Source: Rhodospirillales bacterium 69-11 (GTDB taxonomy: Bacteria > Pseudomonadota > Alphaproteobacteria > Acetobacterales > Acetobacteraceae). From it: a stretch of 64,000 bases of DNA. A model generated the notes under the pieces. It ran no database searches and was not told where the DNA came from. It saw only the letters and a list, made by a program, of their open reading frames with translations. Each line of letters starts with the position of its first letter. Position 1 is the first letter of the stretch. The stretch covers positions 186,029-250,028 of the forward strand of contig MKTV01000005.1 in the NCBI GenBank assembly GCA_001898425.1, read 5' to 3'. A program made the position numbers and the translations under genes. Below are positions 15,263 through 41,819 of this stretch, piece after piece.

Positions 15263-15636
15263 GGCGCGGCCGGCCGGCGTGGGCCCGGGTGGCCGCGTGG
15301 CCGTCGCGGGCTCTCGCCGCTCTCTCTCGTCATGGCCGGGCTCGACCCGGCGGCGGCGGTTGCGCCCGCTCTCCGTCATGGCCGGGCTTGACCCGGCCAC
15401 CCCCACCGGCACGCTGCTATGGAGGGGGCCGTCACGCGGCGTCTTGCGGCAGGGATGGCCGGCTCGACGGCCGGCCATGACGGTTGTGCGCTGGGCGGCG
15501 CTTGGGGCGGGGCGGCGCTTGGGGCGGGGCGGCGCTTGGGCGGGGCCTCGACGGACGCGCGGCCGCCCGACGAACGCTCGGCCCTGACGAACCCGTAGCC
15601 GCCCAACGACCGCGTGGCCGCCCGACGAACGGGCGG
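15263..15636. repeat. 374-bp convergent gap with REP-like palindromes and tandem repeats
   Basis: Positions 15329-15481 carry two forward copies of the GTCATGGCCGGGCT(C/T)GACC core and end in an inverted copy, GGCCGGCCATGAC. Next come three tandem 17-bp units, GGCGGCGCTTGGGGCGG (15494-15544, the last unit one base short), then two copies of GGCCGCCCGACGAACG (15561 and 15617). The gap lies between the convergent SDR and rsfS genes. I see no gene in it. Confidence 0.75.
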
Positions 15637-35304: not shown

Positions 35305-35460
35305 TGATCTTCCTCGTGTTGCGCCGCAGCAATTTGGCGGATCCTGCCAAGATGGGGAGCGGGCCTCCCGCACTATGGCAACCTTTCCCACGGCGACCTA
35401 CCTAGTATGCAGGGCGGGGAGCAGGCGTCACGCACGCCGGCGAGAGAGGGGACGCAGCTC

Positions 35461-38400
35461 ATGGACATTGGCCTCGGCACGACCACGACGCTCGAGTCTC
35501 GCTTCCAGGATTTCGATCGGCCCGTGCTGCTCAGCGGCATCCAGGCACTGGTGCGCCTGCTGCTCGAGCAGCGGCGGCTCGACGCGCTCGCCGGGCTGAA
35601 CACCGCCGGCTTCGTCTCCGGCTATCGCGGTTCGCCGCTCGGCATGCTCGACAAGGAACTGTGGTCGCGGAAGAAACTGCTCGCGGAGCAGGCGGTGCGG
35701 TTCGAGCCCGGCATCAACGAGGATCTCGCCGCCACGATGCTGCTGGGCACGCAGGAACTCGGCGCGTTCCCCGGCCCCAAGGTCGATGGCGTCTACGGCA
35801 TGTGGTACGGCAAGGGGCCCGGCGTCGACCGCACCGGCGACGCGTTCCACTGCGGCAACATGGCCGGCACCCACAAGCATGGCGGCGTGCTCGCTGTCGC
35901 GGGCGACGACCATGGCGCGCACTCCTCCACCTACCCGCACCAGACCGAATACGTCTTCCAGAACTGCTTCATGCCGGTGCTCAACCCGGCCTCCGTGCAG
36001 GACGTGCTCGACCTCGGCCTCGCCGGCTGGGCGATGTCGCGCTATTCCGGCCTGTGGGTCGCGATGAAGACCACGGCCGAGACGATGGAGCAGGCCTCCA
36101 CCGCCATCGTCCCCAGCCGGCCCGTCTTCGTCACCCCCGACTTTGCGCTGCCCCCGCACGGGCTCAACCTCGATCACACGCTGCGCTTTCCGGCCGAACG
36201 CGCCGAACTCGAGCGGCGCATGATCGAGGAGCGGCTGCCCGCGCTGATGGCCTGGGCCCGCGCCAACCGGATCGACCGGCTGGTTTCCGGCACCGCCGAC
36301 GCCACGATCGGCATCGTCACCGTGGGCAAGGTGCACGAGGACACGCTGCACGCGCTGCGCCGCCTCGGCATCGAGGACCACGCGCAGCTCGCCGTCTACA
36401 AGGTCGCGATGACCTGGCCGCTGGAGACCGAAGGCCTGCGCGCCTTCGCCCGCGGCAAGCGCGCGATCCTGGTGGTCGAGGAGAAGCGCAGCTTCGTCGA
36501 AAGCCAGATCCGCGACGCGCTGTACCACCTGCCCGCCGACCAGCGCCCCGAGATCAGCGGCAAGACGCTGCCGAACGGGGAGCCGCTGCTCTCCGCGCTG
36601 ATGGAGCTCTCGCCCGAGATCGTCGCGGGCGGCCTCGCCAAGGTGCTGGGCGGGGCGGGGCTCAACCTGCCGAACCTGCCGCCCCCGGTCGCCGCCGACC
36701 GCCCGGATGGGCTGCTGAAGCGCGTCCCCGCCTTCTGCGCGGGCTGCCCGCATGCCACCAGCACAAAGCTGCCCGAGGGCAGCTTCGCCTCGGCCGGCAT
36801 CGGCTGCCACTTCATGGCGCTGGACGAGGGTCCGCAGACCCGCACCTTCACCCACATGGGCGGGGAGGGCGTGCCCTTCGTCGGCCTCTCCGGCTTCACC
36901 GAGGTGAAGCACATGTTCGCCAACCTGGGCGACGGCACCTACCAGCATTCCGGCAGCCTCGCGATCCGCCAGGCGGTCGCGGCCAAGACCCGCATCACCT
37001 ACAAGCTGCTGTTCAACGACGCCGTCGCCATGACCGGCGGCCAGCCCGCGGAGGGCGCGCCCACCGTGCCCGCCATCGCCGCCCAGCTCGCCGCCGAGGG
37101 CGTGAAGCGCATCGCCGTCGTGGTGGACGAAGCGGACCGCATGCCGTCGCCCTCCGCCCTGCCGCCCGGCGTGACGCGGCATACCCGCGCCGAACTCGAC
37201 GCGGTGCAGCGGGAGCTGCGCGACTACGACGGCCCCTCGGTGCTGATCTACGACCAGGTCTGCGCGACCGAGAAGCGCCGCCGCCGCAAGCGCGGCTCCA
37301 TGCCGCAGGCGACGCGCCACGTGGTGATCAACGAGAGCGTCTGCGAGAATTGCGGCGACTGCTCCACCCAGTCCGGCTGCATCGCGATCGATCCGGTCGA
37401 GACCCCGCTGGGCCGCAAGCGGCGCATCAACCCGACCGCCTGCAACGTCGACCTCTCCTGCCTGAAAGGCTTCTGCCCCAGCTTCGTGACGCTGGACGGA
37501 CCGCCCGCCGCCCCCGACGCCGACACCACCTGGGAAGCGCGCGAAGCGGAGCTCGGACGCGACCTGCCGCAGCCCGCCCTGCCGCAGGGCACGGTCTGGC
37601 GCGGCCTGTTCGCCGGCATCGGCGGCGGCGGGATCGTCACCTCGGGCGCGATCCTGGCGATGGCGGCGCATCTCGAAGGCCGCGCGGTGAAGACGCTCGA
37701 TTTCACCGGCCTCGCGCAGAAGAACGGCGCGGTGGTCGCGCATGTGCAGATCGCCACGGACGAAAGCGCGCTCGACGTGGTGCGCATCCCGCTCGCCAGC
37801 GCGGACCTGATGCTTGCGGCCGATCTGGCGGTCGGCTGCCAGCCCGGCGTGCTGGAGCGGGCGGCGAAATCCGCCGTGGTGATCGGCAATCTCGACCTCG
37901 CCGCGACGGCGGAGTTCAAGCGCAACGGGCTGCTGTCGATGGACGCGGCACTGCACAAGCGCACGCTCGAGAAGGCGACGGACGCGACGCGTTCGATCTG
38001 GCTGCATGGCGTGCGCATCGCCGAAAAACTCTTCGGCAACGCCCAGGCCATGAACACCGTCATGCTCGGCATCGCCTGGCAGCGCGGCCTGCTGCCGGTG
38101 AGCGAGTCCGCGATCCTGCGCGCCATAGAGCTGAACGGCGCCGCCGTGAAGCTGAACCGCCGCGCCTTCATGTGGGGCCGCATCCTGGCCGAGAAGCCGG
38201 CGCTGATGCACGAGATCCTGGGCGAGCTGGTCGAGGGTCCCCAGGCCGCACTGGAGGACGTGATCGCGACCCGCGTCGCGGCGCTTACCGCCTACCAGTC
38301 CCGCCGCTACGCGGAGCGTTACCGCACGCTGGTGAAGGAGGTCGAGGCGCGCGAGACCGCAGTGTTCGGCAAGCCGGGCCGCCTGACCCGCGCCGCCGCC

Positions 38401-38880
38401 GAGGGGCTGTTCCGCGCGATGGGCTACAAGGACGAGTACGAGGTCGCGCGGCTGCACGCGGGCGCGACTTATGGACCCGGCGCGGTGTTCCATCTGTCGC
38501 CGCCGCTGCTGCACCGGCACGATCCGGCGACCGGGCGGCGCGGCAAGATTGCGGTGTCGGGTCGTATCGCCATGCCGCTGTTCCGCATGATGCGCCATGG
38601 CAAGATCCTGCGCGGCACTCCGCTCGATCCGTTCGGTTGGCAGGCGGAGCGCAAGGCGGAGCGGGCATTGATCGGGCAGTACGTCGCGGACCTGCGCGCT
38701 GCGTTGGCTGCCCTGCGCCCCGAGACGCTGGACGCGGCGGTTGGGTTGGCGGAGCTGCCGGACACGATCCGCGGCTTCGGTCCCGTGAAGGAGGCCAACA
38801 TGGCGAAGGCCGCCACGCGGCGGGAGACGCTGCTGCAACGCCTGAACGCGCCCGCTGAGGTGAAGCTGGCGGCGGAATAG
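35461..38880 (+). CDS. Indolepyruvate ferredoxin oxidoreductase, fused alpha-beta/gamma form
   Basis: 1139-residue TPP enzyme oxidatively decarboxylating aryl or branched-chain 2-keto acids to acyl-CoA, reducing ferredoxin. Regions in order are: a pyrimidine-binding domain (residues about 30-250, GYRGSPLGMLDKELW), and a PP/TPP domain (about 420-600, GIGCHFMAL, NLGDGTYQHSG). A ferredoxin-like Cys cluster follows at about 635-690 (CENCGDCSTQSGC, then CNVDLSCLKGFCPSF). The gamma domain comes last (about 715 onward, GIGGGGIVTSGAILAMAA). Fused IorA-IorB proteins of about 1150 residues are typical of aerobic proteobacteria. The ATG at 35461 follows GAGAGGGG; an upstream ATG at 35407 lacks a site. 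Lrp is divergent. Confidence 0.93.
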   Translation: MDIGLGTTTTLESRFQDFDRPVLLSGIQALVRLLLEQRRLDALAGLNTAGFVSGYRGSPLGMLDKELWSRKKLLAEQAVRFEPGINEDLAATMLLGTQELGAFPGPKVDGVYGMWYGKGPGVDRTGDAFHCGNMAGTHKHGGVLAVAGDDHGAHSSTYPHQTEYVFQNCFMPVLNPASVQDVLDLGLAGWAMSRYSGLWVAMKTTAETMEQASTAIVPSRPVFVTPDFALPPHGLNLDHTLRFPAERAELERRMIEERLPALMAWARANRIDRLVSGTADATIGIVTVGKVHEDTLHALRRLGIEDHAQLAVYKVAMTWPLETEGLRAFARGKRAILVVEEKRSFVESQIRDALYHLPADQRPEISGKTLPNGEPLLSALMELSPEIVAGGLAKVLGGAGLNLPNLPPPVAADRPDGLLKRVPAFCAGCPHATSTKLPEGSFASAGIGCHFMALDEGPQTRTFTHMGGEGVPFVGLSGFTEVKHMFANLGDGTYQHSGSLAIRQAVAAKTRITYKLLFNDAVAMTGGQPAEGAPTVPAIAAQLAAEGVKRIAVVVDEADRMPSPSALPPGVTRHTRAELDAVQRELRDYDGPSVLIYDQVCATEKRRRRKRGSMPQATRHVVINESVCENCGDCSTQSGCIAIDPVETPLGRKRRINPTACNVDLSCLKGFCPSFVTLDGPPAAPDADTTWEAREAELGRDLPQPALPQGTVWRGLFAGIGGGGIVTSGAILAMAAHLEGRAVKTLDFTGLAQKNGAVVAHVQIATDESALDVVRIPLASADLMLAADLAVGCQPGVLERAAKSAVVIGNLDLAATAEFKRNGLLSMDAALHKRTLEKATDATRSIWLHGVRIAEKLFGNAQAMNTVMLGIAWQRGLLPVSESAILRAIELNGAAVKLNRRAFMWGRILAEKPALMHEILGELVEGPQAALEDVIATRVAALTAYQSRRYAERYRTLVKEVEARETAVFGKPGRLTRAAAEGLFRAMGYKDEYEVARLHAGATYGPGAVFHLSPPLLHRHDPATGRRGKIAVSGRIAMPLFRMMRHGKILRGTPLDPFGWQAERKAERALIGQYVADLRAALAALRPETLDAAVGLAELPDTIRGFGPVKEANMAKAATRRETLLQRLNAPAEVKLAAE

Positions 38881-39298
38881 CGGCGGGCCGAGGCCCCGGT
38901 TCCGCGCGGAGGGCTCTCACCCACCCACGTCATGGCCGAGCTTGACCCGGCCATGCCCACCGGCACCGTGCCGCGTGGGATGGCCGGCTCGACGGCCGGC
39001 CATGACGGCGTGCGCACTGGCGGGGCCATCCGTTCTCTCACCCACGTCACGGCCGAGCTTGTCCTGGCCATCCGCACTGCCTGCGTCCAATCGTCATGGC
39101 CGGGCTCGACCCGGCCATCCCCACGCCGCGAAGCTGCGGTCGGAATCCGCGGGTCGAGGCCCGCGGATGACGGCAAGGGCGAGCCCGGCGTTCGCAGGAG
39201 ACCGGAACACACCCGCTCCCTCCCTCCCGCCTCCCTTGCGCCCAAGCGGGTTTCATGCACGAGTTCCGGCAGCATTTCGCACGCGGCGGAGGATCGCC
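38881..39298. repeat. 418-bp gap filled with REP-like palindromes
   Basis: Three elements are visible. One spans 38929-39008 (GTCATGGCCGAGCTTGACC core, inverted end GGCCGGCCATGACGG). A degraded copy starts near 39047 (GTCACGGCCGAGCTTGTCC). Another spans 39092-39171 (exact core, ending with CCGCGGGTCGAGGCCCGCGG and ATGACGG). No gene is seen. The last 60 bases hold the ribosome binding site (GCGGAGGA) of the next gene. Confidence 0.75.
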
Positions 39299-40240
39299 AT
39301 GGAAGACCCCACGACCGACATCGACGCGCTTCTCGGCTTCGCGCCGGATTACGACGCGCCGATCCCCTACATGCAGCGCACCCGCGAGTACTACAAGGCG
39401 ATCGGCTACACCACGCCCTATCGCTGGGCGCACTACCTGCAGGCGCCGTTCACGCCGTTTCAGAAGAAACTGAACGCCGCGCGGATCGCCATCATCACCA
39501 CCGCCGCCCCGTTCCAGCCCGACAAGGGCGACCAGGGTCCCGGTGCGCCGTACAACGGCAGCGCCAAGTTCTACCAGCCGTATTCGAAGGACGTGACGCA
39601 GCCCTACGACCTGCGCATCTCGCACATCGGCTACGACCGCACGCACACCACGGCCACCGACGCGAACACCTGGTTCCCGCTGCCGGCGCTGCAGCGCGCC
39701 GTCGCCGCCGGCCGCGTGGGCGCGATCGCGCCGCGCTTCCACGGCGCGCCCACCAACCGCAGCCATCGCGTCACGGTGCAGACCGACGCGCCGGAACTGC
39801 TGAAGCGCGTGCAGGAGGATGGCGCCGACGCCGTGCTGCTGGTGCCGAACTGCCCGGTCTGCCACCAGACGGTCAGCCTGGTCGCGCGCCACATCGAAGC
39901 GGCGGGCATCCCGACCGTGGTGATGGGCTGCGCCAAGGACATCGTGGAGCACGCCGCCGTGCCGCGCTTCCTGTTCAGCGACTTCCCGCTGGGCAACAGC
40001 GCCGGTAAGCCGCACGACGTCGCCTCGCAGGACGAGACGCTGGAACTGGCGCTGCGCCTGCTCGAGGGCGCGGTCGGCGCGCGCACCACGATGCAGTCGC
40101 CGATCCGTTGGTCGGAAAGCGGCGATTGGAAGAACGACTACCTGAACCTCGAGCGGATCGGGCCCGAGGAACTCGCGCGCCGCCGCGCGGAGTTCGACCG
40201 GCAGAAGGAACTGGCGCGCCCGAACCGCGTCGCCGCCTGA
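39299..40240 (+). CDS. GrdB-like (glycine/sarcosine/betaine reductase selenoprotein B family) protein, cysteine form
   Basis: 313 residues. The C-terminal half resembles GrdB: VGAIAPRFHGAPTNRSHRVT, then ADAVLLVPNCPVCHQTVSLVARHIEAAGIPTVVMG. In clostridial GrdB the corresponding position carries selenocysteine in a U-x-x-C context. Here it is Cys185-x-x-Cys188, with no in-frame TGA. Known GrdB cleaves C-N bonds in a multisubunit reductase, but the other Grd subunits are missing here. The protein is therefore an orphan of unknown reaction, possibly a thiol-dependent reductase or lyase. It lies between the keto-acid oxidoreductase and a CoA-transferase. Confidence 0.75.
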   Translation: MEDPTTDIDALLGFAPDYDAPIPYMQRTREYYKAIGYTTPYRWAHYLQAPFTPFQKKLNAARIAIITTAAPFQPDKGDQGPGAPYNGSAKFYQPYSKDVTQPYDLRISHIGYDRTHTTATDANTWFPLPALQRAVAAGRVGAIAPRFHGAPTNRSHRVTVQTDAPELLKRVQEDGADAVLLVPNCPVCHQTVSLVARHIEAAGIPTVVMGCAKDIVEHAAVPRFLFSDFPLGNSAGKPHDVASQDETLELALRLLEGAVGARTTMQSPIRWSESGDWKNDYLNLERIGPEELARRRAEFDRQKELARPNRVAA

Positions 40241-40255
40241 AGTTTCGGATGAAAC

Positions 40256-40296
40256 CATGCCGAACGGCATGAACGATCCTCAGGCCGTTCGGCATG
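40256..40296. terminator. Long perfect hairpin after the GrdB-like gene
   Basis: CATGCCGAACGGC and GCCGTTCGGCATG form a perfect 13-bp stem with a 15-base loop, starting 15 bases after the stop codon. No T-tract follows. Probably an intrinsic-like or Rho-assisted terminator, or an RNA-stabilising structure. Confidence 0.55.
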
Positions 40297-40397: not shown

Positions 40398-41600
40398 GTG
40401 ACGGAAGCCAAGCGCCCGTTCGAGGGTGTCCGCATCCTCGACTTCACCCAGGTCCTGGCCGGGCCGTACGGGTCCTACCAGCTCGCGCTGCTGGGGGCCG
40501 ACGTGATCAAGGTGGAGCGGCGCGAGGGCGAGGACATGCGGCGCACGCCGCTGTCGCGCGAATGGGCGGAGCGCGGCATGGCGCCGTCCTGGCTCGCGAT
40601 CAACGGCAACAAGCGAAGCCTGACGCTCGACCTGCAGAAGCCGGCCGCGGTGGAGATCGTCAAGAAGCTCGCCGCCGAGGCCGACGTGGTCATAGAGAAC
40701 TTCCGCGGCGGCGTGATGGACCGGCTGGGCATCGGCTACAAGGCGCTGTCCGAGGTGAATCCGCGGCTGATCTATTGCTGCATCTCGGGCTTCGGCCAGA
40801 CCGGCCCGTCGAGCAACGAGGCCGGTTATGACGGCAAGATCCAGGCGATGTCCGGGATCATGGCGATCACCGGCCACAAGGAGATGGGTCCGACCCGTGC
40901 GGGCTTCGCGGTCTGCGACGTGCTGTCGGGGATGACGGCCGCTTTCGCGGTGTCCTCCGCGCTGTTCCAGCGCACGCACACGGGGAAGGGGCAGTTCATC
41001 GACGTCTCGATGCTGGAGGCGAGCCTCGCCTTCCTCTCGACCCAGGTCGCCGATTTCACCGTGGCCGGCCACCACCAGGAGCAGTTCGGCAATCAGGCGA
41101 TCAGCCGCAAGGTGACGGCGAACCTGTTCAAGGCGAAGGACAGCCACCTGCTGCTCGCGGTGAATGACGAGAAGCAGTTCCGCGCGCTGATCACCACGAT
41201 CGGCTGCACGGAGGTGTTCGACGATCCGCGCTTCGCCGACTGGTTCAGCCGCAAGGAGCATGAGGCGGCGCTGCGGGAGATCATCGAGCGCGCGCTGTCG
41301 GCGGCGGATGCCAAGACCTGGGAACGCCGTCTGAACGACGCGGGTGCGCCGGCGGCCAGCATCTGGAAGGTGGAGGAGATCATCGACCACCCGCAGATCG
41401 CCGCGCGCGACGTGCTGCAGACGGTGGACAGTCCCTACGGGCCGATGCGGCTGATGGGATCGGGGTTCAAGCTGGCCCATGGCGGCGGCAAGCTCGACAC
41501 GATCGCCCCGCCGCTCGGGGCCCACACGGACGCGATCCTGGCCGACCTGGGCTACGACGACCGCGCGATCGCGGCGCTGCGGTCGGACGGGGTGGTGTAG
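40398..41600 (+). CDS. CaiB/BaiF family CoA-transferase (class III)
   Basis: 400 residues. Transfers CoA between carboxylic acids through aspartyl-CoA intermediates. RILDFTQVLAGPYGSYQLALLGADVIKVERREGEDMRR is the N-terminal family signature. ENFRGGVMDRLGIGYKAL and CISGFGQTGP follow. The Asp in the GYDGKIQAMSG segment (about residue 148) matches the catalytic Asp of formyl-CoA transferase. The GTG at 40398 has GGAGGA seven bases upstream. Its acids are unknown; the acyl-CoA dehydrogenases and keto-acid oxidoreductase of the window make CoA-thioester substrates plausible. Confidence 0.92.
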   Translation: MTEAKRPFEGVRILDFTQVLAGPYGSYQLALLGADVIKVERREGEDMRRTPLSREWAERGMAPSWLAINGNKRSLTLDLQKPAAVEIVKKLAAEADVVIENFRGGVMDRLGIGYKALSEVNPRLIYCCISGFGQTGPSSNEAGYDGKIQAMSGIMAITGHKEMGPTRAGFAVCDVLSGMTAAFAVSSALFQRTHTGKGQFIDVSMLEASLAFLSTQVADFTVAGHHQEQFGNQAISRKVTANLFKAKDSHLLLAVNDEKQFRALITTIGCTEVFDDPRFADWFSRKEHEAALREIIERALSAADAKTWERRLNDAGAPAASIWKVEEIIDHPQIAARDVLQTVDSPYGPMRLMGSGFKLAHGGGKLDTIAPPLGAHTDAILADLGYDDRAIAALRSDGVV

Positions 41601-41819
41601 CGCCGCGACCGGTGGTGTTGGGCTCGCGACAGGGTGGTGTCGGGCCTGCGGTAGTCATGTGCCCCGTGTCATGGCCGGGCTCGTCCCGGCCATCCATGAT
41701 TTTCCCCCGGCACCGTAAGTCGTGGATGGCCGCCCTTCGGCGGCCATGACACGTACGCACGCCCTTCGGCGGCCATGACACGTACGCACGCCCTTCGGCG
41801 GCCATGACACGAGCGGCGG
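41601..41819. repeat. Convergent gap with REP-like palindrome and 29-bp tandem repeat
   Basis: A GTGTCATGGCCGGGCTCGTCC core at about 41665 is followed by an inverted end at about 41720-41750. From 41732 a 29-bp unit (GCCCTTCGGCGGCCATGACA plus CGTACGCAC) is repeated: 41732-41760, 41761-41789 and a partial copy to 41810. The gap lies between the convergent CoA-transferase and amidohydrolase genes. Confidence 0.8.

Follow-up and report, generated by a model that had tools for sequence, protein, structure and literature searches.

The window analysed here is a stretch of 64,000 nucleotides from contig MKTV01000005.1 of Rhodospirillales bacterium 69-11, and within it the gene for a PrdB-like protein is followed by that of a class III CoA-transferase (Table 1). 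The PrdB-like gene is real and of the Cys form: its reading frame is open from the ATG to the stop codon with no in-frame TGA, a GGAGGA lies immediately 5' of the start, and the motif NCPVCHQT holds the two cysteines that an initial annotation had placed where clostridial GrdB carries selenocysteine (Sec), a reading confirmed here. The remaining cysteine, Cys211, is not conserved in the alignment of relatives. Upstream lies a gene of the indolepyruvate:ferredoxin oxidoreductase family (35407-38880).

Table 1. Features at the PrdB-like locus (positions are those of the window)
Feature	Position	Strand	Remarks
Dispersed palindromic repeat (two copies)	38930..39119		Separating the oxidoreductase and PrdB-like genes
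PrdB-like protein, 313 aa, Cys form of a Sec/Cys family	39299..40240	+	Cys185-Pro-Val-Cys188 redox motif
Codons of Cys185-Pro-Val-Cys188	39851..39862	+	First codon, TGC, at the TGA position of Sec relatives
17-nt inverted repeat	40256..40296		94% complementary, 7 nt between arms; between the PrdB-like and CoA-transferase genes
Class III (CaiB/BaiF) CoA-transferase	40398..41600	+	PF02515; start taken as GTG 40398 after GGAGG; listed ORF start 40347
Copy of the dispersed palindromic repeat	41669..41694		After the CoA-transferase gene; terminator-like score

The spaces between these genes carry repeats of two kinds. The dispersed palindromic repeat, near TCATGGCCGGGCTCGACCCGGCCATC with up to 3 mismatches, is present in eight copies on one strand (starting at 15376, 34711, 38930, 39094, 41669, 43878, 43913, and 43949) and in none of the shuffles, and it is intergenic at the seven positions inspected (15376 aside). 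The inverted repeat in the gap before the CoA-transferase gene was not called as a terminator and could be a regulatory hairpin. The window has 1 terminator-like match where shuffles lead one to expect 1.3, so that such matches are no commoner in it.

At the thresholds applied, relatives of the protein occur in 16 of 398 genomes in the draw from the phylum and in 50 of 385 in that from the class, the genome of the window being in both counts, while viral contigs gave one pattern match and no relative. By eye, the relatives were grouped into subfamily I (from about 51% identity upwards), subfamily II (about 45%), subfamily III (about 33%), and a set of 410-440 aa frames, scripted ORF calls being crude for such GC-rich genomes. 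Of 126 distinct relatives, a set consisting mostly of close ones and excluding a frame broken by TAG (L130) and the window's own copy (L082), 124 retain the motif, as C-P-x-C in 102 and as U-P-x-C in 22, and it is therefore not a product of chance; the other two have Asp in place of the second Cys. Large stretches outside the CxxC motif are conserved among the relatives as well.

Exchange of Sec and Cys at catalytic redox residues is established knowledge, and position 185 is subject to it. In Sec relatives from other Alphaproteobacteria, a TGA stands exactly at the position of Cys185, and a tree of 68 rows, thinned from 129 at 90% identity, with four PrdB rows counted as Sec and with L130, L082, L119 (an overlong frame), and L137 dropped, requires the label to switch between Sec and Cys seven times; branches with good support impose no fewer than five of these switches. 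A warning of long branches meeting (L145:7074-7886, and L135, L136, and L138 with the rest) applies to this tree, and its deep placements are unsure. It follows from the TGA in relatives and from the seven switches that Cys185 is probably the reactive residue. The thiol role proposed in the initial annotation is a probable one. In its accessible parts, a 2006 survey describes Sec/Cys exchange as usual at catalytic redox residues and, unlike the present tree, has neither proline reductase nor GrdB among the families listed with a Sec/Cys conversion (PMC1794560).

The Sec relatives also show a pattern at the RNA level. Of 21 Sec rows, 19 have GTGAGT after the TGA, in or beside a hairpin loop; none of 17 Cys rows has it, these being hand-picked and including the window, with rows lacking the motif and L119 omitted. 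This fits real selenocysteine insertion in these relatives, although the hairpin energy of the Sec forms is not striking (weak, with a mean z of -0.89 vs 0.17). A fossil SECIS in the window gene was considered and rejected: the hairpin layout resembles that of the Sec forms, but the diagnostic GTGAGT is missing, and the shared residues His-Gln-Thr-Val-Ser-Leu-Val, written in common codons, explain six of the seven pairs in the stem. We make no claim on the direction of the Sec/Cys change at the window gene.

In the third group, at about 33% identity, the matches L145:7074-7886 and L158 12483-13307 each lie close to a subfamily I copy, and the former has Sec but Asp for the second Cys (UPLDH), which may allow a different redox cycle. 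Eight alphaproteobacterial loci (L167-L174), mostly with frames of 410-440 aa, contain a PrdB-like region with [U/C]-P-x-C-T, and six of the eight have Sec. No match to the pyruvoyl family PF09338 was present in four genomes of this group (G481, G466, G647, and G718), and a TauD-like gene adjoins the frame at L172 and L173; TauD-like, LLM-type, MoxR, and VWA are names for neighbours that were assigned by eye.

The initial annotation had called the protein GrdB-like, and this stands in so far as it is a Cys-form member of the GrdB family: it matches PF07355 (GRDB) with 27.1 bits, above the gathering cut-off of 22, over profile positions 202-345 of 347. Its nearest relation is another. The best NCBIfam match is TIGR04483 (PrdB) with 88.4 bits against an equivalog cut-off of 300, while the models of the GrdB group score 37.8-43.1 bits, all below cut-off (TIGR01917, 37.8 of 602.2 bits; TIGR01918, 41.7 of 65.45 bits). 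Judged by these profile scores, the protein is nearer to PrdB than to GrdB and passes no curated cut-off for either. An hhalign comparison with PrdB gave a probability of 99.7% and an E-value of 3.7e-26 over 210 columns, with Cys185 placed on Sec and Cys188 on Cys; the two alignments compared, 50 close sequences and four annotated PrdB proteins, are both shallow. The former consists of 49 of 51 thinned rows and the window, two rows with doubtful starts (L009 and L022) having been omitted and three starts trimmed.

The AlphaFold2 model (mean pLDDT 75, pTM 0.79) has a generic alpha/beta fold of middling confidence, in which Cys185 lies just ahead of helix 186-201 and behind strand 178-182; in alpha/beta folds, a reactive residue would commonly sit at such a point. 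A Foldseek search with the model returned no match at an E-value of 1e-3. The best match of a second-look fold search was a LacI-type chain (Z of 8.4), which may reflect a common arrangement only, and the listing of that search contained no GrdB or PrdB chain, by which a difference in fold is not shown. Searching the PDB, by sequence as well as by profile, yielded no relative.

The initial annotation held that the protein stands without the other glycine reductase subunits, and for the pyruvoyl subunit this holds. The family of GrdE and PrdA (PF09338) was found in 0 of 9 gene-holding genomes, that of the window (97.77% complete) included, and in 0 of 7 of a second set, together 0 of 14 different genomes, while the controls gave a match in 3 of 3 plasmids, all of proline reductase (PrdA) type. 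GrdA (PF04723) was matched in 0 of 7 genomes, and its positive control gave no match either. A SelB system acting with the protein had been named as evidence that would speak against a separate role. Indeed, selA and selB stand side by side in the genome (L110:4597-6462 and L111), but they cannot act on the PrdB-like gene, because it has no TGA. The organism thus probably makes selenoproteins, but the product of this gene is not one of them. The aerobic character that the initial annotation had ascribed to the organism is supported by genes of the haem-copper (terminal) oxidase family (PF00115), which gave eight matching stretches at six places, two of them split in two.

The second gene of the pair is a class III CoA-transferase, with a score of 380.8 bits against PF02515 (cut-off 23.3). 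Its D191 is invariant in 15 of 15 chosen rows and occupies the position of the Asp that we take to be catalytic in these enzymes. The best NCBIfam match is succinate--glutarate CoA-transferase (NF052585), with 279.7 bits against a cut-off of 750.

Conservation of this neighbourhood can be followed across the relatives. Among the best 80 of 574 loci found, 79 have a class III CoA-transferase as the next gene downstream, in the same orientation, and the 80th (L017) stops at a contig edge; these loci come mostly from Acetobacteraceae and other Rhodospirillales, Siccirubricoccus, and Bradyrhizobium, and the kinship of the species leaves the counts far from independent. The better test of the pairing is offered by 24 more distant loci of subfamily I, at 51-72% identity, which lie among 28 stretches hand-chosen from the phylum and class genome draws. 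Eight of these have the transferase (52-75% identity) directly downstream, and two more have a distant one (33%). Nine of the ten are Sec forms, so that the gene pair spans the Sec/Cys switch.

The pairing is not a rule for the family. A CoA-transferase directly downstream is missing at the other 14 of the 24 loci (one, L150, has a convergent one of 32%) and at four subfamily II loci, and none lies within 10 kb of the annotated loci of Roseomonas haemaphysalidis and Haematobacter. Small genomes from another class (L101 and L102; genomes of about 2 Mb, family f66) have one Cys-form copy and no CoA-transferase directly downstream. In the co-occurrence check that had been suggested at the outset, counted by genome, a transferase of at least 52% identity is present in 11 of 23 genomes holding the gene (adjacent in 10, elsewhere in G725) and in 0 of 17 non-holders, which were hand-picked from the phylum and class draws and of which one had an above-threshold match of 42%. 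From these counts, it seems that the transferase accompanies the PrdB-like protein and not the reverse. As 12 of the 23 holders have no such transferase anywhere, and as it is absent downstream at the 14 subfamily I loci and the subfamily II loci, the CoA-transferase is not indispensable to the family.

Both neighbours named in the initial annotation are present, but only the CoA-transferase is conserved. The 2-oxoacid oxidoreductase was rejected as a functional partner: it was seen close to the PrdB-like gene in no genome but that of the window (the window and L001), not even in a 96% relative (L002), and it was found at none of the best 80 of 574 loci, some of the upstream flanks being short. 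Other neighbours recall the chemistry of the CoA-transferase in its absence or are of other kinds. Among loci without the CoA-transferase, an AMP-dependent acyl-CoA ligase stands next door at L103, and a divergent one adjoins the subfamily II locus L156; enoyl-CoA hydratase and a glyoxalase-fold protein adjoin L146, a gene of the fumarylacetoacetate hydrolase family adjoins L101, and one of a sulfur-transport family adjoins L151. CoA chemistry thus recurs around the gene and is not universal there; enzymes of CoA metabolism are frequent in these genomes, and the rest of the neighbourhood varies.

Taken together, homology to PrdB with a CxxC motif, a first Cys exchanged with Sec in relatives, a genome in which PF09338 was not found, and a transferase gene that follows in most near relatives lead to our preferred reading, to which we give a probability of roughly 0.4: the protein may belong to a branch of the PrdB/GrdB family that does without pyruvoyl and is compatible with air, and may act as a thiol reductase on a CoA-linked substrate. 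From this evidence we infer the substrate, the CoA ester as its true form, and the reductant. The CoA-transferase would make or use the CoA thioester of an organic acid, and Cys185 would attack the activated carbon or its heteroatom substituent, with cleavage or reduction as the outcome. Cys188 would then pair with Cys185 as a disulfide, which thioredoxin or a similar cellular thiol system could reset. In the anaerobic reductases, PrdA or GrdE provides a Schiff base, and it is conceivable that CoA activation takes its place here.

The strongest rival to a CoA-ester reductase is a plain thiol-redox role, in which the protein would be a general thiol:disulfide, peroxide, or electrophile reductase for protection against stress, linked to the CoA-transferase by regulation or common inheritance only. 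Thiol redox proteins typically have a CxxC or UxxC motif in which Sec and Cys are exchanged, according to the accessible parts of two earlier studies (PMC1794560, PMC1088965), and many holder genomes do without the CoA-transferase. Yet the transferase stays beside the gene in lineages of both forms, Cys and Sec, where other neighbours come and go, and the extent of conservation outside the motif suggests a specific substrate; we regard the general role as unlikely while taking it seriously. A stronger form of the preferred reading can also be put forward. There, an aerobic branch of the glycine and proline reductases would use a CoA thioester from a dedicated class III CoA-transferase in place of the pyruvoyl Schiff base, with Sec and Cys interchangeable, and would constitute a new kind of reductive C-X enzyme, which we consider doubtful as a whole.

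A third possibility would bring the protein closer to its nearest family. A step like that of D-proline reductase or another amine reductase could feed a glutarate-type route, with ring opening to an omega-amino acid, transamination, and CoA transfer by a transferase of succinate-glutarate type. PrdB being the nearest family, the transferase having its best, below-cut-off NCBIfam match to that type, and a class III aminotransferase lying just upstream at the transferase-bearing Siccirubricoccus locus L020 (with a similar frame in L036 and an annotated aminotransferase upstream in Haematobacter) all agree with such a route. The transferase scores are non-discriminating, however, a CoA:oxalate type model reaching 252.8, and at other loci no aminotransferase emerged as a conserved neighbour. 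In known D-proline reductase, PrdA binds the amine, and no PrdA homologue was found. On the whole, the route is rather improbable.

Two further alternatives fare worse. The pairing with a CoA-transferase would also suit Cys185 as an acyl acceptor, making the protein a thioesterase or acyl-transfer partner and not a redox protein, but the repeated Sec at 185 and the second Cys kept in 124 of 126 relatives point to redox and not to hydrolysis, and this is very improbable. That the protein works in a genuine GrdB or PrdB complex, whose other subunits would be encoded elsewhere in the genome and have diverged beyond recognition, is hardly to be expected, for all its family homology and a partner search that spanned PF09338 and GrdA (the latter without a working control), given the PF09338 result with its working controls, the unreached family cut-offs, and the terminal oxidase genes.

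Known already are marine Sec and Cys proteins of PrdB type. The accessible parts of two metagenomic studies describe UxxC-bearing homologues of PrdB in the Sargasso Sea and GOS samples, together with homologues that have Cys (PMC1088965, PMC2398784). They give 42 Sec PrdB genes in 2005 (PMC1088965) and 235 Sec and 110 Cys genes in 2008, the later survey placing PrdB-type proteins with the most common selenoprotein families in GOS (PMC2398784). Recent reviews, as far as their text is accessible, list a PrdB-like family (PMC13188914, PMC9312934). In the open-access literature, we found no link of a CoA-transferase to PrdB-like proteins, which does not prove its absence from print, and in the accessible parts of that literature no function for PrdB-type proteins outside anaerobes. 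The gene pair offers a testable handle, as the Cys form occurs in Bradyrhizobium, Siccirubricoccus, and Rhodopila and the function can there be sought without selenium. The context hints at the same chemistry being used in air.

The marine PrdB selenoproteins are likewise PrdB homologues with Sec and Cys forms and may correspond to subfamily I; their reports give neither gene neighbours nor function in the parts accessible (PMC1088965, PMC2398784). Relatives from Roseomonas (66% identity) and Haematobacter (56%) bear the NCBI product name 'glycine/sarcosine/betaine reductase selenoprotein B family protein', which implies glycine reductase and selenium, whereas the window protein has Cys and a function in glycine reduction is unsupported; a functional assignment would correct this misleading annotation. 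With GrdB, GrdF, and GrdH (PF07355, TIGR01917/8), the protein shares a Pfam family above cut-off and the UxxC/CxxC motif, and it differs in covering the last part of the profile only, in scoring below the NCBIfam cut-offs, and in belonging to a genome where the GrdE family was not found. The closest likeness is to D-proline reductase PrdB (TIGR04483), with which it has in common the homologous region of about 210 columns, Sec and the second Cys of PrdB aligning with Cys185 and Cys188, as well as a His after the motif and an SHxGYD stretch. The ends outside the aligned part are longer than those of PrdB (50 residues before and 44 after, vs 22 and 6), and the protein described here carries Cys instead of Sec, belongs to a genome without a match to the PrdA family, and has a CoA-transferase as its neighbour.
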